A DNA stretch of 39,542 nucleotides. Source: Omnitrophica bacterium GWA2_41_15. GTDB lineage: Bacteria; Omnitrophota; Gorgyraeia; Gygaellales; Profunditerraquicolaceae. The notes beneath the pieces are model-generated. The model saw only the letters and a list, made by a program, of their open reading frames with translations. It made no database searches and was not told where the DNA came from. This document shows, one piece after another, positions 200 through 15,626 of this stretch. Both the position numbers and the translations under genes were made by a program. Where the stretch lies: NCBI GenBank assembly GCA_919901915.1, contig CAKKQB010000053.1, positions 200 through 39,741 of the forward strand, given 5' to 3'. Positions within the stretch are counted from its first letter, which is position 1, and the number at the start of each line of letters is the position of its first letter.

Positions 200-3100
200 C
201 TATAGTTCGGCGTAAGCCAATTTTTTGTTTTCTTTTTTCTCCTCTTTTTCAGGAGAGATACCTGCGAACGCGCTTGCGTCTTTTATGTCCTCTAAGGTAA
301 CGCTAAAGCTAATGCCCTTGTCAAAAAAACTCGGGTCAAAGAAACGCGTATTTATCGAACTCGACGTTGGTGATGAGGTGATCTTATTATCTACTCCCTC
401 TAACGAAATACCACCTTTTTTTAATGGCTCTTGAATTTTTATCGCGCTGGAGACGGTTCCTTCAGCTTTGGCAATAGCCTCTGCTGCTTTGCCGTCAAAA
501 AACGTATTTATGTATGCAGCTTTTGGACCTATGAGGATATAATCTTTTATATCCTGCTCATCTGCTTTATTCCCAAATGAAATTACAACTTTTTTGTTAT
601 CGTCCGATAATTCTGTCGTTATTTTTCTGCCAAGTTCAGGCTGGCTAACTATAGAGAGAGAAAAATGGCCGTATTTTATTTTCTCTAAAGCTGTCTTCAG
701 CGCTCGCATAGTTAAAGGAGCAGATTTTCTAATCTGTGCCTGTGCCGCGGCCAACCAAGCGCCTAAGATGCGGTATGGTGAACAGCTGGCATAATCTAAT
801 CCGGTTTCATGGAAAAATTTGATAGATTCCGGATCTCCGCCATGTTCGCCGCAAACCCCAATTTTTAAATCAGGTTTTGTTTTTCTTCCGTCTTGCACCG
901 CCATACGGACAAATTTGCCAATTCCCTCCACGTCAATCGTTTCAAATGGATTATCGGGATAAATACCTAATTCTTTATATAGCTCCAGGAGTTCTGTGGT
1001 ATCATCGCGGCTGAATCCAGCGCCATATTGAGTTAAATCGTTTGTGCCAAAGGAGAAAAAATCTGCTTCTTTGGCTATTTCACCGGCAGTAATAGCGGCG
1101 CGCGGAACCTCAATCATTGTTCCTACTTTATATTCAAAATGCGTTTCTTGTTCTTGCATAACTTTTTCAATAGCATCGACCACAACTTTTTTCTGATGAG
1201 TAAACTCTTCTGTTTTTCCCACTAAAGGAATCATAATTTCAGGAATGACGCTTTTTCCTTCTTTAATTATTACGATGACTGCTTCGGCAATTGCTCGTGC
1301 CTGCATCGCGGTAATTTCCGACATCGTAATTCCTAAGCGCGCTCCTCGCAATCCCATCATTGGATTAAATTGGTGTAATGCGTTAATTCTATCAAGTAGT
1401 TTTTCTTTTTGCTCGATAACCGCGAGATCCCCTTGATTTGATTTTAAATGTTCGATTTCAACCATTAACTCTTCACGTTTGGGTAGGAATTCATGCAAAG
1501 GTGGATCCAGCAAACGAATCGTAACAGGGTAACCACGCATTTCACGGAAAAGCCCGATAAAATCTTCTTTTTGCATTGGAAGAAGTTTCTTTAGAGCGTT
1601 TTGGCGCCCCTCAAGCGTATCAGCTAAAATCATCTCTTGCATAATAGGCAGGCGGCTTTCTTCAAAGAACATATGTTCAGTGCGGCAAAGACCGATCCCT
1701 TCAGCGCCAAACTCGAAAGCCATTTTAGCATCGCGCGGAATATCAGCGTTTGCCCGTATTCGCAATTTACTTATTTCTTTAGCCCAAGACAAGAAAACTG
1801 CTAACTCACTACCCATAGATTCTGGCCGCGCAATTTTTTTCTTGCCTAAAATCAACTGGGCTCTCTCTCCGGAAACCACATTCAAGGTAACGCAATCCCC
1901 TTGTTTTATAGTTCTCCTAACCCCTTGTCCATTTGTAATATATGCTTCCTTCTTTTCTCCATTAACTTTAACTTGTTCGGCGCCCACCATAGTTACTTTA
2001 CCCATGGATCGGGCTACTACTGCCGCGTGCGAAGTCATTCCGCCTCTGGAAGTTCCTATGCCCACCGCGGAATCCATTCCCGCGATATCATCAGGGCAAG
2101 TTTCTTCGCGCCAAAGAATGACTTGCTTACCATCATTGGTCCAAAGAACCGCGTCTTCTGATGTAAAAACAATTTGACCTGTAGCCGCGCCCGGCCCAGC
2201 TGATAATCCCGTAGCTAGCACATCCTCTTTAGTTAAATTTTTCTTTTCTGTAGGATCTAACATAGGAAACAAAACTTCGTTAATTTGCTTAGGATCAACG
2301 CGCATTAAGGCCTCTTCTTTAGTAATCAGGCCTTCTCTTACTAGGTCTACAGCAATTTTAACTGCTGCTACGCCAGTACGTTTGCCCGAACGCGTTTGCA
2401 AAAGATACAACTTACCGTTTTCAATTGTATATTCAAAATCCTGCACATCTTTATAATACTTTTCAAGGCCGCTGGTAATTTCCATAAGCTGATCATAGGC
2501 CGCAGGCATTACTTTTTGTAATTCAGATACAGGCCGCGGAGTGCGAATACCCGCTACCACATCTTCTCCTTGAGCATTAACTAAGAATTCACCAAATGAC
2601 TCTTTTTCGCCGGTAGAGGGGTTACGAGTGAAGCCAACGCCTGTCGCTGAATCATCTCCGCTGTTGCCAAAAACCATAGCCTGGACATTAACTGCTGTGC
2701 CTAAATCGTGCGGGATTTTATTCAAATTACGATACGTAATAGCGCGTGGATTACCCCACGATTCAAAAACAGCATTAATTGCCATTTTTAGTTGTTGCCG
2801 CGCGTCTTGCGGAAATTCTTTTTCATGAGCCTTAAGCAGTGCTTTGAATTTAACCACTAAATCTTTTAATGCCGCTACATCTAAATCCACATCTTGCTTA
2901 ACGTTTAGTTCTTCTTTTTTGGCTTCAATAATTTCTTCAAATGCCTTCTTTTCTATGCCTAAAACTACATCGGAAAACATCTGGATAAAGCGGCGATAGC
3001 TATCCCATGCAAGCCGTTCATTGTTGGTCATTCGCGCGAAAACTTCAACCGTTGTGTCATTAAGGCCTAAATTAAGGATAGTGTCCATCATCCCCGGCAT

Positions 3101-6100
3101 AGAGAATTTCGCGCCGGAACGCACGGAAACCAATAACAATTTTTCATTACTCCCCAATTTTTTATTTGAATCTATTTCTAATTGCGTTATGCCAGCAGCT
3201 ATCTCTTTTTCTAATTTCGCAGGCCATTCTTTATTATTATCGGAATAATACTTACAGGCCTCTGTCGTAATAGTAAAACCCGGTGGGACAGGAATTCCCG
3301 CTCGTGTCATTGAATGTAGGCCTTCACCTTTACCTCCTAAGAGTCCTTTGCGCGTATTTAGGTCTATCGCGTCACTAAACAATTCTTCAGCTGTAGTTTT
3401 CCCCTTGCCAAAAGATTCAACAAGTTTTAGTTCTTTTGTAGATAAAGCGCTGGAGGCAAGGCTCAAGTTTTCTAATACCTCTAGTTTACCGTCAGAAGCA
3501 ATAAAATCTAAACTCGCGCCTCCGCCAGTAAGCACCGCTTCTTTAAAAAAAAGACTATCTTCAGAAATGCCTGATTGCTTTATAGCCGGGCCAGTATCTC
3601 CGCCGCCAGCGATTACTGCTATATTTTTTTCTTTCCATAGTTTCTTAATTCCTTCTGCAACTGCTTTCGTTCCATCGATAAAACCGCCATTTTTCTTTTC
3701 AAAAGCGCCTAAAGGCCCATTCCAAACAATGGTTTCTGTTCCATTCATTGCTTTTAAAATTTCATTTATGGTTGCTGGGCCGATGTCTACCCCCTTATAA
3801 TTTTCCGTTATTGACTCCCCATCTGAAGTTTTTGCGTATATGCCATCATAAAGTTCCTCGTCGGGAACCATAATATGGTCAATTGGCAGGATAACGTTTA
3901 CTTTCTTCTCGGCTAACTTAGCAAGAATCTCCTTTGCTATAGGTATACTTCCCTGGTCAATAAAAGAGTTGCCTAAAAGAAGATCAGAGTTCTTTGCTTT
4001 TATAAAAGTATATGCCATTGCTCCGGCAATAACTAAAGTATCCCCTTCCCGCATTTTACTAACAAGGGTTTCAAGTACTTTAGTTTTGTCCGATACTTTA
4101 AAGCCTCCTACGATAGCCATGAAAGGATGTTTAGGTAAAATTGTCTTGGATAAAATATTTAATTCTTTTTCCAAGAGGAAACCGATTGCTTTTTCTATAT
4201 TTTTTCCATTCATTTTGCTTAATGGGTACATTGAAGCATGTTTACGATGTATTGTCGCCGCCGCGTCTATAACATAAATATCCGCTAACCCTGCTAATTG
4301 CTTCCTTAGGTTTTCACCTGTGTTTTCACCTGCCTCTTTTTCTCCCTTAGCAAAACGGATGTTTTCTAAAAGACATATCTTCCTTTTCCCTTTGTTAATT
4401 TCACTAATTGCATCCTCGCTTAAGCCGTTTTGATTCACTGAACCCTTCAAGAATGCAACACTGTTCTGGAATCCCGTTGGTTGCAATAGTTTCTGTAATT
4501 TTTTCGCGATTATTTCCGTAGAAAAATCTTTTTTTGAGCCAAAATGGGTAACCAGAGTTACGCTCTTGGGGTTCTGGCTTGTAATATATTCTAATGTCGG
4601 CAATATTTCTCGTATCTTACGGTCATCCGTTATATCCTTAACCGCGCCATTTTCATCAACTTCTACGGGAGTATTAAGGTCAACTCTTAGTACCACTCTT
4701 TGCCCATCAATATTAACATCCCTGATACTATGAAATTTTCCCACTCCGGGTATTTCAATCGATGAGCTGGTTTTTTGTTTATTGAGGTATGCCGCTGCTT
4801 TATTGCTAACGCTTTTTATGGCTGATAGGCTTACATCCAAATCAGCAGTCTCCATCGTCGTCTGAACCATGAACGCGCTGCCATCACGAGTTACTATAAG
4901 GGTATTGGCGGTGATGGTGCCTCGTCCATTGCTTTGCGGAAGAATCTTAACGCATTTAAATAGATCAGCGTAATCATGGCCAAAAATATCAGGAGATGCC
5001 CCTGTAACCGAAGTCGTTACCAGAATACCGTTTCCGTTAATCGCTTTCTCGGTTCTTGGGTTCATATATTGCTGTTTAGAGATACCAAAATTTTTAAACG
5101 TAGTTATCTCTTCAGGTGTGTACGCATACGCAGTTTCTTTACTGAAATTAAACTCAGTAGCTTTCTGGGAAACGTAAGTATGAGAAAAATGGCCATCTTT
5201 AATATTCGCTGCTGCTAAAAGCGCGGCTGTTTCTTCTGCTGAACCTCCACGGCCAAAGGTAATCATGGTGCGTCCATCCAAATTTAGCCCTAAAATAGAA
5301 ACTAAACGCGGTTTAAAACCACCATCACTAGGCGTTACAAGCTTTAAGTCTATAAATTCTCTCTGCATTTTTTTCGCGTCTTCAATAATCGCGTCATGTT
5401 TATGCGCAGCTATTCCTTGTTCATGGATTTTTTTGTCTTTATCATCTCGGGGGCCCATAACGGAAACAGTCACGTGGTTCATAAAATAGTTATATTCTTT
5501 CGTGTCTTTTTTAAAACCTTTTGCCGCGGCTATTTTAGGCAAAGCAACAGAAGGCAAATCAAAAGGAGTAACTCCCGCGTCTTTAGGCGCATTATAACCT
5601 ATGCCGCCAAAGCGCGAAAAATCATTCACTGGAAGATTTTTTTTATCAAAAAAAGTAATCAAGTTACAGCTGTTCGTGGGTTCCGAAAAAGCCTTTTTAT
5701 CCGCTAGGCCATTAGTAAGTTCTAAGGCATCGCCTACGAAATAACGCAGGAGAACTCTTCTACTTTTCAAAACATTTAATTCGTTATTTAATTCCACGAT
5801 ATTAATTTTTTTACGCGTATCCTTATAACCGGAATAATAAATAGTACCTATATTTAAGGAAACAGAGTTATCTCGGAGTCCTTCATCTCCCAGTATAACT
5901 ATTGCTATATCTTTATGGGTCTGCACATAAAGTAGAATCGCGTCTTCTACCATTTTAACAGCATTAGCATCCGCTACTTCTTTTATGTTTTTTCCGCCTG
6001 TGGCAAAAACCCACGAACCTAAAGCCGCGGCTATGGAAGCTCCAATAGCAAAAGGAGCTTGTGGTTGCTTAAGAAGGCTCTTAAGGGGCATGTTACCTTT

Positions 6101-7696
6101 AAGACGCCTTATGTTAACTTTTGTTGGAGCAAGGTCAAATGGAGATAAATTTTTCGCGAAATCCTTTAATTCCGCAGGAGGTATTTCTATTTGCTCTGTT
6201 TTTGTTAAAACCTTCTTTTTTTCTATAACATCGGATAGTATGCTTATTTTCCATTTTAAGGCACTATGAAAGGGAACAGTCATACCGTCGAATCTACCTT
6301 TTTCAAGTTCAATAAGATCTTTTTCAAACTTGGTTTTTAATTCTAGAAGTACGTCTATAGCGACGTTTGTTTCGAGATCTTTTTTGAAAGCCAGTATTTT
6401 GTCAATATCACTACTAAGCGTGCCATTTATGTTTACAACAGCGTTGAGCCCAGCGATAATATTTCTAATAATAGTTTTTTTTGGATCCGAAGCACCATAG
6501 CTTATTATTGCTTCTGTGTTGTTGCCGCCGGACAAATATGCGCTAATTATACTGCTTGAGGCAAAAACGACTTCTAAGTTGGAGTTCCGATCTCCAAAAT
6601 TAGTGCCAGTATTTGAAACTCTAATATCAATACCCCCTGAAAAATACCGTCTTTTTATCTGTTTTTTAGTAGCGAGTTCCTGCTCTGGCTTGATGTAGTT
6701 GTATAGCCCTTTTTGAAAAGCCTGTAAATAAAGGTTGTAAACCTTTTCTTTGGCTTGAGGGTCGCTTAGGTCTATGCCTTTAATTTTACCTTTATCTATG
6801 TAATTGCTGTAGAGGGATTCCTTGAATTTCTTTTTAAACCAACTCGCTAGAATAATGGAATAGTATATTTGACGCAAAGTGGCGAAATTCTTGCCTTTGT
6901 TGATATCCGCGTTTATTTTAGGTAAAATTTGCTCCCTCATTACATTGGATGAAGCCTTATTGATATCTTGGATTAAGTCGCGCGTATCGCGTATTGCGTC
7001 GCGTGTATTGCGTTTCGGAATTTCTTTCTGGATAGCGGAAACGTTATTCTTTAAAGCAAGAAAATCTTCTTCTAACATTGCCTTTAGGCTTGCTTCAGCC
7101 ACAACCGCAAGGTTTTCGTTTTCATAAACTACCATTTTATCCGGGACAATCCAGATTTTATTAAAGGTATTTACCGGGATATTGGTGGTTTTGGCGATTT
7201 TTAGGACCTCATCGTAGGTCTTGTTCCAAAAGTCCTTGCCAGTTTGACTTTCCGGATAGGTTAAGGATGCGGAGATTTGTTTTAGAATATAATCCTGCGA
7301 TAATAAGCCTTCGCCTAATTCAGTTGAAGTAAGAATATCAGGAAGAATACGGTCTTTTTCATAAGGAGATAAGTTAACCCAGAGGTTTTCCGGAGGAACA
7401 GTTAAGCCAGCTAAGAAATACCTCACTAAGCGGGAGACCTCTTCTTTGCTTACCTTTTTAGCATCGCCATTATTGATAATAAATTCCATTGTTAAAGGAT
7501 TTGCCGGATCAAACTTCAACCCCTTTAACACCGGAAAAGAATAAGTGCCGGATAAATTAACGAATTCCTTAGGGCTGGGCAAGCCAAAGGCTTCCGCGGC
7601 AAACGCGGCGTTGGGTAAAATAGTATTGCAGAGAAAAACTACTGCGATAAACAGTGAAGCGAGTTTTTTGAAACCTTTGGTTTTGGCGAACTTCAT
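200..7696 (-). CDS. Signal-peptide fusion protein: N-domain, GlpX-like FBPase, phosphoglycerate kinase, pyruvate phosphate dikinase
   Basis: A 2498-residue protein. The start chosen is the second ATG: GGAGG at 7702-7706 lies 5 bases upstream of it and overlaps a spurious earlier ATG at 7708. Residues 1-33 are a Sec signal peptide ending AFA/AEAF. Residues ~34-355 are the N-domain shared with the next two fusion genes, ending KRRYFSGG. Residues ~541-953 resemble GlpX (DALE at 656-659, GRGGSAEE near 817, HKHDAII), but the GDKN metal motif reads GGKN. Residues ~986-1401 are PGK (RVDLN, IVWNGPLGAFE, TGGGASL); the substrate loop HLGRP reads HFGSK. Residues ~1440-2321 are a full PPDK with phospho-His1890 (GGMTSHAAVVAR) and catalytic Cys2282 (CGEHGGDP). 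About 105 unassigned residues follow, then the shared C-tail. PPDK interconverts pyruvate and PEP, PGK 3PG and 1,3BPG, and FBPase makes F6P. Domain identities are firm for PGK and PPDK and good for GlpX. The cellular location is inferred. Confidence 0.93.
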   Translation of the reverse strand: MKFAKTKGFKKLASLFIAVVFLCNTILPNAAFAAEAFGLPSPKEFVNLSGTYSFPVLKGLKFDPANPLTMEFIINNGDAKKVSKEEVSRLVRYFLAGLTVPPENLWVNLSPYEKDRILPDILTSTELGEGLLSQDYILKQISASLTYPESQTGKDFWNKTYDEVLKIAKTTNIPVNTFNKIWIVPDKMVVYENENLAVVAEASLKAMLEEDFLALKNNVSAIQKEIPKRNTRDAIRDTRDLIQDINKASSNVMREQILPKINADINKGKNFATLRQIYYSIILASWFKKKFKESLYSNYIDKGKIKGIDLSDPQAKEKVYNLYLQAFQKGLYNYIKPEQELATKKQIKRRYFSGGIDIRVSNTGTNFGDRNSNLEVVFASSSIISAYLSGGNNTEAIISYGASDPKKTIIRNIIAGLNAVVNINGTLSSDIDKILAFKKDLETNVAIDVLLELKTKFEKDLIELEKGRFDGMTVPFHSALKWKISILSDVIEKKKVLTKTEQIEIPPAELKDFAKNLSPFDLAPTKVNIRRLKGNMPLKSLLKQPQAPFAIGASIAAALGSWVFATGGKNIKEVADANAVKMVEDAILLYVQTHKDIAIVILGDEGLRDNSVSLNIGTIYYSGYKDTRKKINIVELNNELNVLKSRRVLLRYFVGDALELTNGLADKKAFSEPTNSCNLITFFDKKNLPVNDFSRFGGIGYNAPKDAGVTPFDLPSVALPKIAAAKGFKKDTKEYNYFMNHVTVSVMGPRDDKDKKIHEQGIAAHKHDAIIEDAKKMQREFIDLKLVTPSDGGFKPRLVSILGLNLDGRTMITFGRGGSAEETAALLAAANIKDGHFSHTYVSQKATEFNFSKETAYAYTPEEITTFKNFGISKQQYMNPRTEKAINGNGILVTTSVTGASPDIFGHDYADLFKCVKILPQSNGRGTITANTLIVTRDGSAFMVQTTMETADLDVSLSAIKSVSNKAAAYLNKQKTSSSIEIPGVGKFHSIRDVNIDGQRVVLRVDLNTPVEVDENGAVKDITDDRKIREILPTLEYITSQNPKSVTLVTHFGSKKDFSTEIIAKKLQKLLQPTGFQNSVAFLKGSVNQNGLSEDAISEINKGKRKICLLENIRFAKGEKEAGENTGENLRKQLAGLADIYVIDAAATIHRKHASMYPLSKMNGKNIEKAIGFLLEKELNILSKTILPKHPFMAIVGGFKVSDKTKVLETLVSKMREGDTLVIAGAMAYTFIKAKNSDLLLGNSFIDQGSIPIAKEILAKLAEKKVNVILPIDHIMVPDEELYDGIYAKTSDGESITENYKGVDIGPATINEILKAMNGTETIVWNGPLGAFEKKNGGFIDGTKAVAEGIKKLWKEKNIAVIAGGGDTGPAIKQSGISEDSLFFKEAVLTGGGASLDFIASDGKLEVLENLSLASSALSTKELKLVESFGKGKTTAEELFSDAIDLNTRKGLLGGKGEGLHSMTRAGIPVPPGFTITTEACKYYSDNNKEWPAKLEKEIAAGITQLEIDSNKKLGSNEKLLLVSVRSGAKFSMPGMMDTILNLGLNDTTVEVFARMTNNERLAWDSYRRFIQMFSDVVLGIEKKAFEEIIEAKKEELNVKQDVDLDVAALKDLVVKFKALLKAHEKEFPQDARQQLKMAINAVFESWGNPRAITYRNLNKIPHDLGTAVNVQAMVFGNSGDDSATGVGFTRNPSTGEKESFGEFLVNAQGEDVVAGIRTPRPVSELQKVMPAAYDQLMEITSGLEKYYKDVQDFEYTIENGKLYLLQTRSGKRTGVAAVKIAVDLVREGLITKEEALMRVDPKQINEVLFPMLDPTEKKNLTKEDVLATGLSAGPGAATGQIVFTSEDAVLWTNDGKQVILWREETCPDDIAGMDSAVGIGTSRGGMTSHAAVVARSMGKVTMVGAEQVKVNGEKKEAYITNGQGVRRTIKQGDCVTLNVVSGERAQLILGKKKIARPESMGSELAVFLSWAKEISKLRIRANADIPRDAKMAFEFGAEGIGLCRTEHMFFEESRLPIMQEMILADTLEGRQNALKKLLPMQKEDFIGLFREMRGYPVTIRLLDPPLHEFLPKREELMVEIEHLKSNQGDLAVIEQKEKLLDRINALHQFNPMMGLRGARLGITMSEITAMQARAIAEAVIVIIKEGKSVIPEIMIPLVGKTEEFTHQKKVVVDAIEKVMQEQETHFEYKVGTMIEVPRAAITAGEIAKEADFFSFGTNDLTQYGAGFSRDDTTELLELYKELGIYPDNPFETIDVEGIGKFVRMAVQDGRKTKPDLKIGVCGEHGGDPESIKFFHETGLDYASCSPYRILGAWLAAAQAQIRKSAPLTMRALKTALEKIKYGHFSLSIVSQPELGRKITTELSDDNKKVVISFGNKADEQDIKDYILIGPKAAYINTFFDGKAAEAIAKAEGTVSSAIKIQEPLKKGGISLEGVDNKITSSPTSSSINTRFFDPSFFDKGISFSVTLEDIKDASAFAGISPEKEEKKENKKLAYAEL

Positions 7697-7701
7697 TTTA
7701 A

Positions 7702-7706
7702 CCTCC
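7702..7706 (-). promoter_or_regulatory. Shine-Dalgarno that decides the start of the GlpX-PGK-PPDK gene
   Basis: On the minus strand the sequence reads ATGGAGGTTAAAATG. GGAGG is spaced 5 bases from the second ATG and lies inside the first ATG's codons, so translation should begin at MKFAKTKG. The FBA fusion gene has the same arrangement. Confidence 0.75.
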
Positions 7707-7735
7707 ATTTTTGGTATTCACGAATATGGTCATCT

Positions 7736-8098
7736 TTACGGCGCCCTTAAAATCCGGGAAAATCTTACTAATTCCGCTTTTTTTAATTCAATTCCTACCT
7801 GATATTTGTCCTTGTTTGATTTTAATTTTTTTGACCAGACTACGTCTCCTCGAGTATAAAGCGGTTCACCTTTATCCGGAATTTGAAGCCATATCTCTAA
7901 AGGAGTACGGTTAGTTAGGTCTTTATTTGTGGTGAGAAATCCTATGCCCTTACCGCTAATATCGCAAGTTACGGCTGAATCTTCTTCTTGATTCGTATCA
8001 AGGTTTAAAAATCTTAAAGGGAACTCTACGGGAAATCTAGCAAATATGCGCCTGTCTTCCATTGCCGCGTTCTTTTTCTCTTTCATTGGTTTTGTCAT
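7736..8098 (-). CDS. PilZ-domain protein
   Basis: A 120-residue protein. DRRIFARFPVE near residue 15 is the RRxxxR arm of the PilZ c-di-GMP site, and CDISGKGIGF near residue 45 is the D/NxSxxG arm. The length fits a single PilZ domain. The family binds cyclic di-GMP and acts as an effector through partner proteins. It sits between the TIM-enolase and PPDK fusion genes on the same strand, 39 bases before the latter, so it is probably co-transcribed with the glycolytic fusions. No Shine-Dalgarno is evident at this ATG; the internal ATG at MEDRRIF is an alternative start. What it controls here is unknown. Confidence 0.85.
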   Translation of the reverse strand: MTKPMKEKKNAAMEDRRIFARFPVEFPLRFLNLDTNQEEDSAVTCDISGKGIGFLTTNKDLTNRTPLEIWLQIPDKGEPLYTRGDVVWSKKLKSNKDKYQVGIELKKAELVRFSRILRAP

Positions 8099-8218: not shown

Positions 8219-11200
8219 TTATTTTTTATACGCTAGTTCCTGTCTTTTTGTTTTATTTTCTTTTTCCGAAGGGAGATTCAACGCCATTTTAATAGTTTCT
8301 GTTCTTTCCCCCGTAACCTTAAAAGTAAACCCGTCAAAATTCTGCAAGTTATCAAGGAAAAAAGGTGTCTCCACAGGACTAGACGAAGGCGATACAGGAA
8401 TATCTATGCTTTCTAAGTTGATACCACCGTTGTCGTTGGCAATTTTCAAACTGCTAGCTACAATTTGCATGTTTTCTTCAATTCTCAACAATTCATTATA
8501 TTTAGCGTTTCTATCCGTGCGATTAGGCGCGCCTGTTTTTAGAAATCCTCCGCCTAATCCTACGGAAAGATGAGCAATGGTAACATCTTCTGTCTCGCCT
8601 GAACGATGGGACACGAAAAGATTCCAACCATTCCCTAAGGCTAAATTTCCGGCCTCAGCTGCTTCGGTTAATGTGCCTATTTGGTTAATTTTATCAAGCA
8701 GGGCATTGCCTGTTTTAGCGGTAATAGCTTTTTCAGTTAATGTTGGGTTAGTAGACGTAGGATCATCGGTAACAACCTGTAATCCATTCAAAACAATTCC
8801 ATAATTCTCTTTTAATAGGGAGCTAATCTGGTTGTAGAAAGGTACTTGCGAAATAAAATTCGGATCTGTCATTTCTTCTGTTAATTTTTCCCAGCCATAA
8901 GCCGGTTTTTCAGCTCCGCTCCAATCCTTTTCTCCTAAGCCGTCTTCAATAGAGAATAAATAAGCGACATTCTTTGTATCTAAAATAAGATCTTTATAGA
9001 AACGAATTAGATCAAGAGATGTAATTTCCCATTTCTTGTTTTCTAATTGTTTACCCAAAATAGTTTTATCAGCTAAAACTAACGGTTTCTTAAAGTGATA
9101 TATACGATACTGACCGTCTTTAGTTGGGCCTTCGTCCCATTCACTTAAGGCGCCATCCATTCCTAAGGCGACGTCAATTTTACCATTCTGGTTATAGCCG
9201 GCTAATCTAATAGCGGCAGTAATGGCAAGAAAAGGTTCGCGGTTATTCTCGAATGCTGGGACATAACCTCCCTCATCACCGTAGGCTGTGCCTAATGAGC
9301 CTGTTATTCCTCTACCCAATACATTTGAAAGGTTATATTTTTTATATGCTTCATCGGTGTATTTTTTCCGTAATTCTTCTTCATCATTTTTGAGCAAGTC
9401 TCCAAAGGTATGAAAAACTTTTGTTGTTATCTCCATTTGTTCTAACATTGTTTTAGCGCTTCCTACTGCTCCAATCATAAATTCTTGGATGTCAGGGCCG
9501 TCCGGCGCATGCTTACCGCCATTTAAGACATTCTGCATACATATAGGAATCCGGGGGTTTTTTGCGCCAAAGGTTTCATGAATATATTTATAAAACTCAA
9601 CATCCCCATATCCTGATAAATAAGCGCCTATTCTGGCCGTTAAAAGTGACACTGCCAGTGTAGCATTAGCGCCAAGGTTGGATTTATTCTCGGTGCCATC
9701 TAACTTAATAAGAAAGGCATCTATTTTTTTCTGTTCAATAATAGTAAATTCGCCTTTATTCAACGCCTCAATTAACAAAGGAATAATAATATTACTAGCA
9801 TTGTCAGCCGCGATTAAAACACCTTTTTTTTCGTATCCTGATCCCAGTATCTTATATAATTCTTCGTCTGATGATATGGTTTTATTAGGGAATATTTTTT
9901 TTAAACGATTTATTTGTTCAGCAGAAAGTTCAGGTCTTTTTCCTTGCCCAATATCTTTTATAACCTGGCCATCTCTTAACTCCAAAGCTTCGGCTTTACC
10001 AGTAGAAGCGCCTGAAGGAACTATAACGCTAATTGTTTTTCTGTCTGGTAAAGTAACTTCCATCTCAACCGTCGGGAAACCACGGGAATCAAGAACTTGC
10101 CGTGCCTTAGTGGTTTTTAAAAGTTCTACAGTAGTTATGTTTTGCGCTATCGCGCTGGAAGCGCGGGCTTCGAAAATCGCTTTTGCGATGTTAACAAAAC
10201 CTTCTGGTTTTAAGGCTTCTCCTCCTACGAGAGCGCCATCGATACCCGGTTGAGCGATTAAATCCGCAACATTACCGGGTTTAACGCTTCCACCATATAA
10301 AATTTGTATTCTTCCTGCTATGTCAACACCGAATTTATTTAACACCCATGCTCGGATAAAAAGGTGTGCTAATTTTGCATCTTCTGGAGTGGCGGGGGTT
10401 TTCCCTTTACCTATAGCCCAAACCGGTTCATAGGCAATTACGATTTTTTCCAGATCTTCTTTAGTAAAACCCGCTGTACTCCCACGTAGTTGTTGAGTAA
10501 GAACTTTATAAGCGTTACCATTTCCACGCTCTTCAAAGGTTTCTCCTATACAGATAATTGGCTTAAGCTCTTCATTTAGCACTTGTCTTGCCTTGGCATT
10601 TACTAATTTACTGGTTTCCGGTGTCCATTCATGATGACGCCTTTCAGAGTGTCCTAGAATTACATATTCTACACCCAAATTTCTAAGCTGTGTCGCGGAA
10701 TTTTCTCCGGTCCTTGGGCCCTTTTCGTAAGCTGAAGCATTTTGAGCGCCTAAACGGATTAATCCCTGGGGGAGACTTCCCGAATCTTCAAGTTTCTTTA
10801 TCTCTGCTTTAACTAAATAAATGTGCACGGAAGAAGGGCTGATTGGAATAATGAAATCCATGTTTTTTCCTTTGTCGCGCCATGTATTTTTATCATGGTC
10901 TTGAGCAATTAGATTAGCTATACCATTGATTAGTTTTATAGCCTCTTCTGCTGTTGTTAATTCCATCTTCCAGTTGCCAGCAGGAAGGTATTCCCGTTGT
11001 GTTTTTACCGCTTCTTGCAAGCTAGCAGGCACTGTTAGAGTTTTAAGATCTATTTTATTAGCTAACATATCTTGCAGAAATTTACGAACAGCAGCAACCT
11101 CTTGTTTTTTGGCGCTTATTGTCGAGCCAGCCGTTGTTTGAGAGCCGGCAGTAAAAGTTCCCGTTCTCGTTCCCTTTGCCACAATTGTTGTTGGAAATAT

Positions 11201-12370
11201 TGAGACTTTTTTACTAAAAATAGTGCCCGACAAAGCGCTTTGATTTGTCGTTGCCTGAACAGTAAGATTGCGGTTATCGAAGCTAGATCCCCCTGAAAAA
11301 TACCTTCTCTTGATATTCTTTCTACTGCCCTGCTCCGGTTCAGTCTTTATATAGTTATAAAGCCCTTTTTGGAATGCCTGTAAATAAAGGTTGTAGACTT
11401 TTTCTTTGGCGTTTTTATCGGTTAAGTCTATGCCTTTGATTTTACCTTTATCAATGTAATGCTGGTATAAAGACTCTTTGAATTTCTTCTTAAACCAGAC
11501 TGCTAAGATAATAGAGCTGTAAATCTGGCGCAGGGTGGCAAAGTTTTTGCCTGTGTTGATATCCGCGTTTATCTTGGGAAGGATCTCTTGGCGCATTACA
11601 TCAGATGATGCCTTGCTGATTTGTTCAATCGCTCCTTGTTTCAGATCTTTTCTTTGGCTTCGGCTACGATTAAAGGAAGCCGAACCACGGTCTTGTGACC
11701 AGTCCTTTTGAATAGCCGAAACATTATTTTTTAAAGAAAGATAGTCTTGTTCTAACATTGTCTTAAGGCTTGCTTCAGCCACAAAAGCCACATTCTTATT
11801 TTCATAGACCACTGCCTTATCCGGCACGATCCATATTTTATTAAAGGTGTTTACGGGAATATTGGTGGTTTTGGCAATTTTTAAGATTTCATTATAGGTT
11901 TTATTCCAGAAGTCTCTGCCGGTTTGTGATTCAGGATAGGTTAAAGAGGCGGAAATCTGCTTTAGGATATAATCCTGTGATAATAAACCTTCGCCTAAGT
12001 CGGTTTGAGCAAGGTTATCATTGATAATACGGTCTTTTTCATAAGGAGAAAGGTTTACCCAGAGATCATTTTGAGGTATGGTTAGCCCTGCTAAGAAATA
12101 CCTAATAAGGCTGGATGCTTCCTCTTGACTTACCTTTTCTTGGTTACCATGGTCAACAATAAATTCCATTCGCAAAGGATTAGCCGGGTCAAATCTTAAT
12201 CCCTTTAACGTTGGAAAGGAATATGCTTGTGAGAGATTAACAAATTGGCTAGGCCCGGGTAGGTCAAAAGCCTCTGCGGCAAAGGCGGCGTTGGGTAAAA
12301 TAGTGTTGCAGAGAAAAACTACCGCGACGAACAGTGAAGCGATTTTCTTGAAACCTTTGAACGTACTCAT
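8219..12370 (-). CDS. Signal-peptide fusion protein: N-domain, triosephosphate isomerase, enolase
   Basis: A 1383-residue protein whose ATG is preceded by GGAGA about 7 bases upstream. Residues 1-31 are a signal peptide (AFA/AEAF). The shared N-domain runs to KRRYFSGG (ending 361), followed by a Ser/Thr-rich linker to ~430. Residues ~460-735 are a complete TIM: AGNWKM with Asn466 and Lys468, catalytic His574 (ILGHSERR), Glu648 (AYEPVWAIG) and YGGSVKPGN. A short ASSA linker leads to enolase at ~746-1313: DSRGFPTVE, PSGASTG, DGTENKSNLGANA, GDEGG, SIEDGL (Glu1142, Asp1143), Lys1227 in KINQIGT, and SHRSGETED with His1255. The enolase part is longer than the usual ~430 residues, with insertions near 985-1015 and 1080-1115. 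The shared C-tail follows (GGINLESIDI to the end). Both enzymes look catalytically complete. The reactions are DHAP to GAP and 2PG to PEP. The predicted export is what is odd. Confidence 0.93.
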   Translation of the reverse strand: MSTFKGFKKIASLFVAVVFLCNTILPNAAFAAEAFDLPGPSQFVNLSQAYSFPTLKGLRFDPANPLRMEFIVDHGNQEKVSQEEASSLIRYFLAGLTIPQNDLWVNLSPYEKDRIINDNLAQTDLGEGLLSQDYILKQISASLTYPESQTGRDFWNKTYNEILKIAKTTNIPVNTFNKIWIVPDKAVVYENKNVAFVAEASLKTMLEQDYLSLKNNVSAIQKDWSQDRGSASFNRSRSQRKDLKQGAIEQISKASSDVMRQEILPKINADINTGKNFATLRQIYSSIILAVWFKKKFKESLYQHYIDKGKIKGIDLTDKNAKEKVYNLYLQAFQKGLYNYIKTEPEQGSRKNIKRRYFSGGSSFDNRNLTVQATTNQSALSGTIFSKKVSIFPTTIVAKGTRTGTFTAGSQTTAGSTISAKKQEVAAVRKFLQDMLANKIDLKTLTVPASLQEAVKTQREYLPAGNWKMELTTAEEAIKLINGIANLIAQDHDKNTWRDKGKNMDFIIPISPSSVHIYLVKAEIKKLEDSGSLPQGLIRLGAQNASAYEKGPRTGENSATQLRNLGVEYVILGHSERRHHEWTPETSKLVNAKARQVLNEELKPIICIGETFEERGNGNAYKVLTQQLRGSTAGFTKEDLEKIVIAYEPVWAIGKGKTPATPEDAKLAHLFIRAWVLNKFGVDIAGRIQILYGGSVKPGNVADLIAQPGIDGALVGGEALKPEGFVNIAKAIFEARASSAIAQNITTVELLKTTKARQVLDSRGFPTVEMEVTLPDRKTISVIVPSGASTGKAEALELRDGQVIKDIGQGKRPELSAEQINRLKKIFPNKTISSDEELYKILGSGYEKKGVLIAADNASNIIIPLLIEALNKGEFTIIEQKKIDAFLIKLDGTENKSNLGANATLAVSLLTARIGAYLSGYGDVEFYKYIHETFGAKNPRIPICMQNVLNGGKHAPDGPDIQEFMIGAVGSAKTMLEQMEITTKVFHTFGDLLKNDEEELRKKYTDEAYKKYNLSNVLGRGITGSLGTAYGDEGGYVPAFENNREPFLAITAAIRLAGYNQNGKIDVALGMDGALSEWDEGPTKDGQYRIYHFKKPLVLADKTILGKQLENKKWEITSLDLIRFYKDLILDTKNVAYLFSIEDGLGEKDWSGAEKPAYGWEKLTEEMTDPNFISQVPFYNQISSLLKENYGIVLNGLQVVTDDPTSTNPTLTEKAITAKTGNALLDKINQIGTLTEAAEAGNLALGNGWNLFVSHRSGETEDVTIAHLSVGLGGGFLKTGAPNRTDRNAKYNELLRIEENMQIVASSLKIANDNGGINLESIDIPVSPSSSPVETPFFLDNLQNFDGFTFKVTGERTETIKMALNLPSEKENKTKRQELAYKK

Positions 12371-12447: not shown

Positions 12448-15354
12448 TTACCTCGCGTAAGCCAGTTTTACGTTCTCTTTTTTCTCTTGCTTTTCAGGAG
12501 AGATACCTACAAATGCCGCGGTATCCGTTATCTCACCCAAAAAGGTAATCTTGAAACTAACGTTGTCAAAAATGTGCGGGTCAAGGATGATTGACGAACC
12601 AGACGAAGGCAACGCAGAGACATTGATACTTTCCATGTTGATACCGCCTATACCGCCTGATTTTTCTGAGGATAGACTGCTGGAGGTGGCGGCTAACCCT
12701 AAGTTCTTAAACACTGCGTCAAATTGTTTTTCTAGGCTGATCCTTATTGCATCTTGAATATAATCAGGTAGGTTCCATGTAGGTAATTTGAATGTTCCCC
12801 ATACATTTTTTCTATTGCTCACAAATGCCTCTTTAGGATCTTGACTTTCTTTTATTGGATACCACTTAAAGATTTGTTCCTCCATTTCTCTACGTAAGTC
12901 TTTAGGGAAATAAGGACTATCCAGGATAGTATCCTGATAAGCAGTAGCCAGATGAACTTCAGCAAGAGGATGTTTATCCAGAGTTAACTGCCCATCTTGA
13001 TTTAAAAGATCCGGATCTATAGTAAGGCCTTTGGGTATCTTATTGCCGGCAAAAATAGTGAAGTAGTCTTCAGGCAGAGTAGATGCGCCATGTTGAACCA
13101 CACCAGCAAGGCCAAATTCTGTCCTGGCCACTTTACCGATCGCGGCTAAAGTATTAAAACCTACCTTAGCATTGATTACATTACCATGAGCATCCCTAAC
13201 GCCGCCGTGTTTAGTCCCGCTTTGCACAGCAACTTTAGTTATTCCTAGAAGCTGAAATCCGGCTTTTTCACTAAGCGCCTGTAAGACAATATTATATCCG
13301 GTCATAAAAGCCGCGAGGTCTTCTATTGAGCTGTTCCTCTCTTTGCCTTTTTCTAAGCCTGTGCCAATTTCACCTATTTCCCCGCCTAAATTTACTACAA
13401 TACCTTGCTTATCTAAACCAAACTCTTTTTCTAAATGGCGAATATAGCTGGTCATTTCAGCTGTCATTTTGTAATTAAGTTTCTGTTGCTCGGGAATAGT
13501 CTGCTTAGACCAATCAACTAATGTAGACATATCTAAGTCTATTTGGTAGAAGCCTCCTTCTATAGCTTCACGGATAAGTTTTTGTAGATTTATTATTGCC
13601 TTAGGAAGATCTGCATCGCGCTCCTTGGCAGTTATTTGAAAGTGGTCACCTTGTAGATATATAGGGTGATTATAACCTTCTTTGATGGCTGCAGCTAAAA
13701 TTGAAGTAGTAAATTCTACGGGTCGCTGGCCAGTATAGCCTATTTCTGATCTAGCAATCTCAAATATAAAAGGATCAGTTACTTTATTTCTAACGGCTGC
13801 ATGGAGTACTGCTCTCGCGGAATTATAAGCCATACCTCTAATGTTTATAGCCGGAATCGCATAGTGCCTTGGATCGGTAGCCTTTTTAATATAGAGATCA
13901 TAAGTTGAAGCAGGCTTAATACCAAAAGAAGCGGCTATATCTTTAATTAGTTTACGGGTTTTATTGACTATGTCAGTATTCGGATTAAAGGTAGCATCGT
14001 AGACTAATTTATCAATCAACCCATTACTTAAGGCAGTTACATTGGTTATTTTAATGCCATTAGAGGTAACTTCTACTATGTCTTTTAAGGCACTCTCAAT
14101 TGCTGATAAGTTAGCGAAGTTAAGCTTGAGTTGGGTAAGAGAGTCGTAAGATATCTCTTTTGTTCGCGGGCCAGTTTGAGTTCCAGTAGTAGCGGTACCT
14201 GATAGAAGATTTATTCTTAAATCTGTAGTACTGCCGACGAGAGAGAGATCTCCTAATTGTTGTTGCGGAGTAGTAGCAGTTATGTTCGGGAAATTAGTTT
14301 GAGAAAGTATTGCCCCCCCCGAAAAATACCTTCTCTTTATCTGCTTTTTAGTTGCTAATTCCTGCTCCGGCTTGATATAATTGTAAAGCCCTTTTTGAAA
14401 GGCTTGTAAATAAAGGTTATAGACTTTCTCTCTTGCGGCTTTATCGCTTACATCTATGCCTTTAATCTTGCCTTTATCTATATAATTGCTGTATAGGGAT
14501 TCCTTAAACTTATTCTTAAACCAACCAGCCAGAATAAGGGAATAGTATATCTGGCGCAAGGTGGCGAAGTTTTTGCCTTTGTTGATATCCGCGTTTATCT
14601 TAGGAAGAATCTGCTCCTTCATTACGCCTGATGATGCTTTGTTAATATCAGAAATAAGAGGTTCCTGCACATCTTTCCTTTCCTTCTGAATAGCGCCAAC
14701 GTTGTTCTTTAGGGATAGAAAATCTTCCTCTAACATTGCCTTTAGGCTTGCTTCAGCTACCACCGCTAAGTTTTGGTTTTCATGAACCACCATTTTATCC
14801 GGGACAATCCAGATCTTGTTAAAGGTATTTACCGGAATATTCGTGGTTTTGGCTATTTTTAGAACTTCTTGATAGGTTTTGCCCCAGAAATCTTTACCAG
14901 TTTGACTTTCCGGATAGGTTAAGGATGCGGAGATTTGTTTTAGAATATAATCCTGCGATAATAATCCTTCGCCTAATTCAGTTGAAGTAAGAATATCGGG
15001 AAGAATGCGGTCTTTTTCATAAGGAGATAAGTTTACCCAAAGATTTTCCGCGGGAACAGTAAGTCCAGATAGGAAATACCTGACTAAACGGGATGCCTCT
15101 TCCTTGGTTACTTTTTTAGTATTACCGTTGTCAATGATAAATTCCATTGTCAAAGGATTAGCCGGGTCAAACTTTAGCCCCTTTAGCACAGGAAACGAAT
15201 AGGCGTCAGATAAATTAACGAATTGAGCGGGCCCGGGCAAGCCAAAGGCCTCTGCGGCAAACGCCGCATTGGGTAAAATAGTGTTGCAAAGAAAAACTAC
15301 TGCGACGAACAGTGAAGCGATTTTTTTGAAACCTTTGCTTTTGGTGAATTCCAT
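12448..15354 (-). CDS. Signal-peptide fusion protein: N-domain plus class II fructose-bisphosphate aldolase-like domain
   Basis: A 968-residue protein. The second ATG is chosen because GGAGG lies 8 bases upstream of it and overlaps the first ATG (15369). A signal peptide ends at AFA/AEAF (~33). The shared N-domain runs to KRRYFSGG (~347). A Ser/Thr-rich linker follows, with an unassigned stretch to ~485. Residues ~490-885 resemble class II aldolase: YAIPAINI opening, QGDHFQ with His571, KVAVQSGTKHGG with His716, and VVQHGAST with His755, the pattern expected of the three metal ligands. The GYTGQRP motif also recalls the KbaZ/GatZ side of the superfamily, so tagatose-bisphosphate specificity cannot be excluded; the neighbours favour FBP. 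A SSSLSSEKSGG linker leads to the shared C-tail. It is the first gene behind the leader and promoter at 15475-15626. Confidence 0.87.
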   Translation of the reverse strand: MEFTKSKGFKKIASLFVAVVFLCNTILPNAAFAAEAFGLPGPAQFVNLSDAYSFPVLKGLKFDPANPLTMEFIIDNGNTKKVTKEEASRLVRYFLSGLTVPAENLWVNLSPYEKDRILPDILTSTELGEGLLSQDYILKQISASLTYPESQTGKDFWGKTYQEVLKIAKTTNIPVNTFNKIWIVPDKMVVHENQNLAVVAEASLKAMLEEDFLSLKNNVGAIQKERKDVQEPLISDINKASSGVMKEQILPKINADINKGKNFATLRQIYYSLILAGWFKNKFKESLYSNYIDKGKIKGIDVSDKAAREKVYNLYLQAFQKGLYNYIKPEQELATKKQIKRRYFSGGAILSQTNFPNITATTPQQQLGDLSLVGSTTDLRINLLSGTATTGTQTGPRTKEISYDSLTQLKLNFANLSAIESALKDIVEVTSNGIKITNVTALSNGLIDKLVYDATFNPNTDIVNKTRKLIKDIAASFGIKPASTYDLYIKKATDPRHYAIPAINIRGMAYNSARAVLHAAVRNKVTDPFIFEIARSEIGYTGQRPVEFTTSILAAAIKEGYNHPIYLQGDHFQITAKERDADLPKAIINLQKLIREAIEGGFYQIDLDMSTLVDWSKQTIPEQQKLNYKMTAEMTSYIRHLEKEFGLDKQGIVVNLGGEIGEIGTGLEKGKERNSSIEDLAAFMTGYNIVLQALSEKAGFQLLGITKVAVQSGTKHGGVRDAHGNVINAKVGFNTLAAIGKVARTEFGLAGVVQHGASTLPEDYFTIFAGNKIPKGLTIDPDLLNQDGQLTLDKHPLAEVHLATAYQDTILDSPYFPKDLRREMEEQIFKWYPIKESQDPKEAFVSNRKNVWGTFKLPTWNLPDYIQDAIRISLEKQFDAVFKNLGLAATSSSLSSEKSGGIGGINMESINVSALPSSGSSIILDPHIFDNVSFKITFLGEITDTAAFVGISPEKQEKKENVKLAYAR

Positions 15355-15375
15355 TTTACTATCCTCCATTTTTTT

Positions 15376-15444: not shown

Positions 15445-15474
15445 GTCTAATTCCATCCCCTAAACCCACAAAAC

Positions 15475-15508
15475 AAAAAACCGGACTGACTCTTTTTGTC
15501 AATCCGGT
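15475..15508 (-). terminator. Intrinsic terminator within the leader
   Basis: ACCGGATTGAC and GTCAGTCCGGT form an 11-bp stem (one G-T pair) around a 7-base loop, followed by six T on the minus strand. It lies 121 bases upstream of the FBA fusion start and downstream of the promoter at 15599-15626, which is an attenuator position. Confidence 0.8.
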
Positions 15509-15592
15509 TATGAGAAACTTATTCCATAACTTATCTCAAAGCTACCTCCATAACTTTGAGACATACCGGATAAAAACTATTTTTTAAAGCTT
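15475..15592 (-). promoter_or_regulatory. Candidate riboswitch or attenuator leader ahead of the fusion-enzyme operon
   Basis: On the minus strand, downstream of a good promoter, TCCGGTATG (15562-15570) can pair with CATAACCGGA (15503-15512). This closing stem encloses an 8-bp hairpin TCTCAAAG/CTTTGAGA (15534-15561) with a 12-base loop TTATGGAGGTAG. The ACCGGAT strand of the closing stem is also the 5' arm of the terminator at 15475-15508, so the two folds exclude each other. AAGTTATGGA occurs twice. If a ligand stabilises the closing stem, the operon is read through. I do not recognise a known riboswitch class. A stand-alone small RNA of ~115 bases is the main alternative. Confidence 0.5.
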
Positions 15593-15598
15593 AAACTA

Positions 15599-15626
15599 AG
15601 TCTACCATATCTTTTTGTTTTGTCAA
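15599..15626 (-). promoter_or_regulatory. Sigma70-type promoter for the leader and fusion-enzyme operon
   Basis: TTGACA (15621-15626) is a perfect -35 box, with a 16-base spacer to TAGACT (15599-15604), which matches TATAAT at 4 of 6 positions. Transcription should begin near 15592. Confidence 0.65.

Follow-up and report, generated by a model that had tools for sequence, protein, structure and literature searches.

A probable family of cis-acting transcription attenuators ahead of exported-protein genes in Omnitrophota

Introduction

Terminator-type riboswitches and attenuators, such as the LicT/SacY, PyrR and T-box systems, act through a structured leader that is close to a promoter, lies near a start codon and contains a pairing that excludes an intrinsic terminator. 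In LoaP/dfn and RfaH/ops, a hairpin and a terminator likewise stand ahead of long operons, whose products are exported or belong to the surface, and leaders bound by CsrA/RsmA have a hairpin-loop GGA. The leader RNA described here resembles them in these traits, the excluding pairing being predicted for most of its copies, and many copies have a second ANGGA close by.

A role in adhesion, or in preying on other cells, has been proposed for the giant proteins of Omnitrophota, and for one of these proteins the peptides were 3-fold more abundant in attached cells (PMC10066038). A literature search that covered few subscription papers found no paper treating Omnitrophota together with riboswitches. 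The leader probably belongs to a so far undescribed Omnitrophota family of transcription attenuators that act in cis, for which we infer the switching step and the signal. Comparison shows a predicted arrangement in which a promoter is followed by a leader of ~120 nt, with a covarying hairpin (P2), a GCC-AC-GG motif and a strong terminator, before a gene for an exported protein.

Layout of the leader

The window, which is the whole stretch of 39,542 nt that was analysed from Omnitrophica bacterium GWA2_41_15, carries the leader on its minus strand from 15626 to 15471, in the order promoter, hairpin P2, competing closing stem and strong terminator. The gap between this copy and the gene for a 973-aa exported protein is ~100 nt. 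The parts are as follows.

15599..15626, minus strand: sigma-70-type promoter, with -35 TTGACA (15626-15621), a 16-nt spacer and -10 TAGACT (15604-15599)
15565..15570, minus strand: strand 1, UCCGGU, able to pair with strand 2 (local) or with the 5' arm of the terminator (antiterminator)
15570-15562 with 15512-15503, minus strand: closing stem, TCCGGTATG with CATAACCGGA
15533..15562, minus strand: hairpin P2, GUCUCAAAGUUA-UGGAGG-UAGCUUUGAGAU, from the fold and family covariation
15545..15550, minus strand: P2 loop UGGAGG, family consensus RGRGG
15523..15530, minus strand: strand 2, GUUAUGGA, by alignment a decayed version of the family motif GCC-AC-GGA, the partner of strand 1
15503..15512, minus strand: 3' strand of the closing stem, CAUAACCGGA, overlapping the 5' arm of the terminator
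15479..15509, minus strand: intrinsic terminator, AACCGGAUUGAC-loop-GUCAGUCCGGUU, of 12 pairs with the U-tract next to it; its arms are AACCGGATTGAC (15509-15498) and GTCAGTCCGGTT (15490-15479)
15471..15480, minus strand: U-tract UUUUUUGUUU

These parts give the leader the layout of an attenuator, with a promoter, a structured leader and an intrinsic terminator in the same direction as the downstream gene. An earlier, sequence-only reading of this DNA had described a consensus promoter followed by a closing stem that shares a strand with a terminator, and both are borne out: TTGACA-16-TAGACT has 10 of 12 consensus matches on the minus strand, and the 3' strand of the closing stem (15512-15503) overlaps the terminator arm at 15509-15498. 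The internal hairpin it had put at 8 bp is present and was sized too small, folds giving 12-14 bp with the loop TGGAGG. The duplication of AAGTTATGGA that it had pointed out is real, though it probably does not represent a true repeat: P2 arm and loop make up the first copy, and the second aligns with a separate conserved motif of relatives, GCCACGGA, which has decayed to GTTATGGA in the window copy. The form GCCACGG was not found in the window sequence.

A family of related leaders

The leader is one copy of an RNA family in Omnitrophota without a match in Rfam. None of 4227 Rfam families matched it at the cut-off, and permissive thresholds, applied to the window and to relatives, gave sub-threshold chance matches only. 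This agrees with the earlier remark that the leader matches no recognised class. A match to a known small RNA would have spoken against an attenuator, and the Rfam scan returned none.

The host genome contains 6-7 copies of the element. BLAST of that genome gave partial copies at three further places, a sister species has three more copies, and a search with the loop pattern added one more. A first covariance model was built from 8 sequences, three of them trimmed in variable parts or in the stem to ease alignment, and matched 64 of 147 relatives at E<=0.1. Inspection of these matches brought out GCCACGG as a further conserved motif, which has been lost from the window copy. A second model, made from 18 unmodified sequences, matched 75 of 384 Omnitrophota genomes at E<=0.01, mostly within the family and order of the host; 52 were counted at E<=1e-4, these E-values being rough. 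A control scan of 17 genomes from other groups gave nothing below E=0.0019, so that 52 of the 384 sampled Omnitrophota genomes score above every match in the 17 controls. Five of the 23 matches from a pattern scan of named genomes are from Candidatus Omnitrophota, and the other 18 are probably chance.

Promoters are a regular part of the element. A promoter-like site with at least 10 of 12 matches precedes 63 of 74 copies, compared with 6 of 74 after shuffling, and the -10 box is mostly TATACT.

Covariation and conserved motifs

In an alignment of 76 copies, 23 of 25 pairs vary on both sides, and the overall covariation score is 0.565, compared with 0.205 for shuffled alignments and at most 0.115 when partners are slid. 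Covariation is strongest in P2 (0.929, shuffled 0.260) and lower in the local stem P1, in which CCGGY pairs with RCC-AC-GG (0.378, shuffled 0.181). The antiterminator pairing has a score of 0.162 against 0.142 shuffled, and 29 of 500 shuffles equal it. Covariation had earlier been proposed as a test of both the closing stem and the hairpin; the outcome is strong for the hairpin and at background level for the closing stem. The homologs do covary, so the reading as a regulatory leader is not refuted on this ground.

A tree-based test, in which substitutions were redistributed over a FastTree tree in 20 simulations, gave a similar picture. Of the ten strongest column pairs, nine are those of P2 and the tenth is the outermost terminator pair in the model, and none of the 20 simulations reaches them; one P1 pair comes next (E=0.45), and the top 34 pairs include no antiterminator pair. 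The model to which this alignment was fitted already contained the pairs of P1, P2 and the terminator. When the same sequences were realigned with MAFFT, blind to structure, pairs of P2 and of the terminator again came out on top, with one terminator pair alone clearly significant; P2 probably loses clear significance because its length varies.

Two short motifs recur in the family. The P2 loop reads GGAGG in 61 of 76 copies and RGRGG in 70 of 76, and GCCACG is exact in 41 of 76, within a GCC-AC-GG motif that pairs with the 5' strand UCCGG; leaders of the L031 or L040 type carry all of the motifs. Their arrangement is loose. The distance from GGAGG to GCCACG varies from 8 to 17 nt and hits all three reading frames, and in L119, L262, L269 and L300 GCCACG is located in the terminator loop, a type of variant that the models score poorly. 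Five copies have GCCACGG without the GGAGG loop (L127, L129, L295, L301 and L302), and the reverse is seen in one genome, G093 (L100, L106 and L142). This variation in spacing, location and presence suggests that the motifs may be short recognition sites rather than parts of a compact aptamer.

Predicted competition between stems

The window leader folds more stably than its shuffled versions. With the terminator, z = -5.96 (136 nt) and -7.03 (106 nt); without the terminator 3' arm, z = -4.25 and -6.12; and none of 200 shuffles folds as well. When the 3' arm is kept, the terminator is the minimum-energy fold, and when it is removed, the closing stem UCCGGUAUG/CAUAACCGGA takes its place.

The same two folds were sought in the family, where an antiterminator was counted if at least half of the first eight nucleotides of the terminator arm paired with the region 5' of P2. 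The terminator is present in 74 of 76 full-length minimum-energy folds, and the antiterminator in 53 of 76 folds of copies without the terminator 3' arm. Both form in 51 of 76 copies, and mutual exclusivity is therefore predicted for most copies, not all; the antiterminator pairing is missing, for example, in L107, L109, L144 and L148. Its mean base-pair probability is 0.52, compared with 0.30 when the upstream region is shuffled (p about 4e-10) and 0.45 when upstream regions are exchanged among copies (p about 0.004). The closing stem had been proposed as the ON state. The complementarity that such a role would need is kept, well above the shuffled level, and covariation lends it no weight, so that the ON role would rest on complementarity conserved in most copies.

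Genes downstream of the element

The leader is followed in the window by genes for class A proteins, which have a conserved N-domain of ~240 aa after a signal-like segment and several of which are fused to glycolytic enzymes.

12448..15369, minus strand: first gene, an exported 973-aa class A protein with a GatZ/KbaZ-like region
8219..12370, minus strand: second gene, a fusion of the class A N-domain to triosephosphate isomerase and enolase
7736..8098, minus strand: PilZ-domain protein, flanked by two class A genes
200..7708, minus strand: 2502-aa fusion of the class A N-domain to phosphoglycerate kinase and pyruvate phosphate dikinase

For the first gene, the ATG at 15354-15352 is a likelier start codon than the start of the open reading frame at 15369, because GGAGG is found 8 nt before it (15367-15363). 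A profile of the class A N-domain has 15 matches in the host genome. In relatives, phosphoglycerate kinase, iPGM and triosephosphate isomerase are also fused behind this domain, and an apparent export signal ahead of glycolytic enzymes is not what one would expect.

Across the family, 70 downstream open reading frames of at least 100 aa start at a median of 54 nt past the end of the model. A hydrophobic N-terminus is found in 64 of these 70, compared with 53 of 126 background frames (p about 1e-12). BLAST clustering of the downstream genes gave 33 of class A, 22 of class B, 5 of class C, 2 PilZ genes and 10 singletons; the singletons include polysaccharide export, possible glycosidases, a transglutaminase-like protein and a PAS histidine kinase. 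Class B is the first gene of an operon ending with a TPR/pilus-N-domain/SdrD_B-like protein of the class C type, and this terminal protein suggests that the operon may encode a surface fibre.

The element is directly upstream in 20 of 30 class B loci. Eight other class B loci were inspected: in several of them the promoter lies at the gene itself, and L225 has a reduced element. Comparison of these loci indicates that the element acts like a cassette between promoter and gene. At class A loci it is found in ~10 of 30, and many of the others have a GAAAGCGCTTTC-like palindrome ahead of a different promoter. Such palindromes, which we take to resemble LacI/CcpA-type operators, also occur near class A promoters in the leaders L002 and L005-L007 and upstream in L260-L285, several of which are without the element.

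Control of a fusion-enzyme operon, as first suggested, is thus right for the window copy and too narrow for the family, in which pilus-like operons and further exported proteins also lie behind copies of the element. The element family marks a common regulon of class A glycolytic-fusion proteins, the class B pilus-like operon, polysaccharide export and PilZ genes.

A model for switching and its possible readers

In the attenuator that we propose, strand 1 (UCCGGY) would choose between strand 2 (GCC[AC]GG) and strand 3, the 5' arm of the terminator. Pairing of strands 1 and 2 would close a local hairpin on P2 and leave the terminator free (OFF), and pairing of strands 1 and 3 would block the terminator (ON). 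The P2 loop and the AC bulge would form the sensor, and the signal, going by the downstream genes, may have to do with attachment or with the use of carbohydrates. The decay of strand 2 in the window copy counts against this scheme. Of the alternatives in the earlier phrase "new riboswitch or attenuator", the attenuator is supported by its novelty to Rfam, the covariation, the promoter and the near-universal terminator; riboswitch is a candidate label, and the looseness of loop and bulge argues somewhat for a reader that acts in trans. The loop and bulge motifs tolerate variable P2 length and occur in other structural contexts, and a trans-acting RNA-binding factor is therefore somewhat favoured, with a chance that we put a little short of even. 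A small molecule as the reader of loop and bulge is possible and a little less likely. Although the organism is uncultured, the element RNA can be made in vitro to fish for a ligand or a binding protein.

In a true riboswitch, the P1/P2 hairpin with its AC bulge and GGAGG loop would be a small-molecule aptamer (for c-di-GMP or a sugar phosphate, for example) in direct control of the terminator. We regard this as a minority possibility. The expression platform is riboswitch-like, the unpaired motifs are conserved and the leader has a conserved covarying structure, as riboswitches do, while matching no described class. Against an aptamer, the conserved positions are few, loop and bulge lie a variable 8-17 nt apart, and GCCACG falls within the terminator loop in the four copies named above.

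Several observations bear on c-di-GMP as the ligand. The surface, polysaccharide-export and PilZ genes downstream are typical of its control, GGDEF proteins occur in 147 of 147 relatives, and c-di-GMP-I riboswitches in 137 of 147. However, 20 sampled genes controlled by c-di-GMP-I have no family in common with the genes of the element, and scans of 13 class B and 20 class A loci turned up no c-di-GMP-I element. The element did not reach the gathering cut-off of RF01051 or RF03167, true copies of which were found elsewhere in the same genomes. Equivalence with c-di-GMP-I was rejected on the grounds of these other downstream families and the lack of replacement at the scanned loci. GCCACGG presumably resembles a stretch of the GEMM consensus and the 16S 530 loop, probably by coincidence.

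The host itself has 11 matches to c-di-GMP-I or c-di-GMP-I-GGC riboswitches (L177-L180 are examples in G000). In five genomes (L157, L181, L182, L183 and L184), the class B operon faces convergent small genes under c-di-GMP-I control at a distance of ~6-7 kb: either a pair encoding a protein of ~80-110 aa and a small exported protein, or the gene for the exported protein by itself. GGDEF matches were also seen inside open frames of 70,450 residues (G033:C2 near 82064) and 42,913 residues (G094:C2 near 444880).

More tentatively still, the element might be a new, Omnitrophota-confined riboswitch class with a sugar metabolite or signalling nucleotide as its ligand, which would determine whether the cells produce exported glycolytic fusions and attachment fibres. 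If true, such a riboswitch would amount to a decision to enter a host- or surface-attached state.

A terminator or insulator that acts constitutively, or a small RNA in its own right, in each case with no regulated readthrough, would explain the very high stability and high conservation of the terminator. It appears improbable given the constant site directly upstream of particular gene families, the enrichment in hydrophobic N-termini, and the complementarity between an upstream strand and the terminator arm that most copies have.

Control by a leader peptide or ribosome is very unlikely. Here, GGAGG would be a Shine-Dalgarno sequence and NUG-CCA-CGG the start of a short open reading frame; the loop matches the anti-SD, and several copies have ATG, TTG or CTG before CCACG at ~9 nt. 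The start codon is variable, AAG, ACG, AGG and TCG also occurring, and the idea was rejected on its lack of conservation and on spacings in all three frames.

Processive antitermination of the LoaP/RfaH type was considered because GGAGGUAG resembles ops; a specialised NusG paralog would read this sequence or the P2 hairpin, the loop of which presumably resembles the ops sequence GGCGGTAG. The layout of promoter, hairpin, terminator and long operon would suit it. There is very little room for such a paralog, and it was rejected, since element-bearing genomes have one NusG-family domain gene where any was found (G028 has two partial hits, both at contig edges).

CsrA/Rsm-type control through ANGGA motifs (AUGGAGG and ACGGA, with a duplicated AUGGA in the window copy) is the least credible reading: many copies have two such motifs, the first in the hairpin loop, and yet GGA is missing from many copies (GGGGG, AGAGG, GCCACGAG), and it was rejected because the host lacks CsrA (PF02599), as do nearly all of the relatives that carry the element. 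One open frame of 3,988 residues (G121:C26:23253-24407) has four CsrA-like domain matches.

Comparison with known systems

The known systems differ from the element in different ways. Unlike CsrA/RsmA-bound leaders, it occurs in a host without CsrA and can dispense with GGA, and unlike LoaP/dfn and RfaH/ops, it is carried by genomes without a second NusG-family gene. The c-di-GMP-I (GEMM) riboswitches RF01051 and RF03167 resemble it in setting, being abundant in the same genomes, associated with surface-type genes and convergent with the class B operon, but the element does not match their covariance models, has another topology and shares no gene family with the 20 sampled genes. Terminator-type riboswitches and attenuators are alike in overall design; the element differs from them in falling outside all the Rfam families scanned and in having its own P2 loop, its own GCC-AC-GG motif and its own set of genes.
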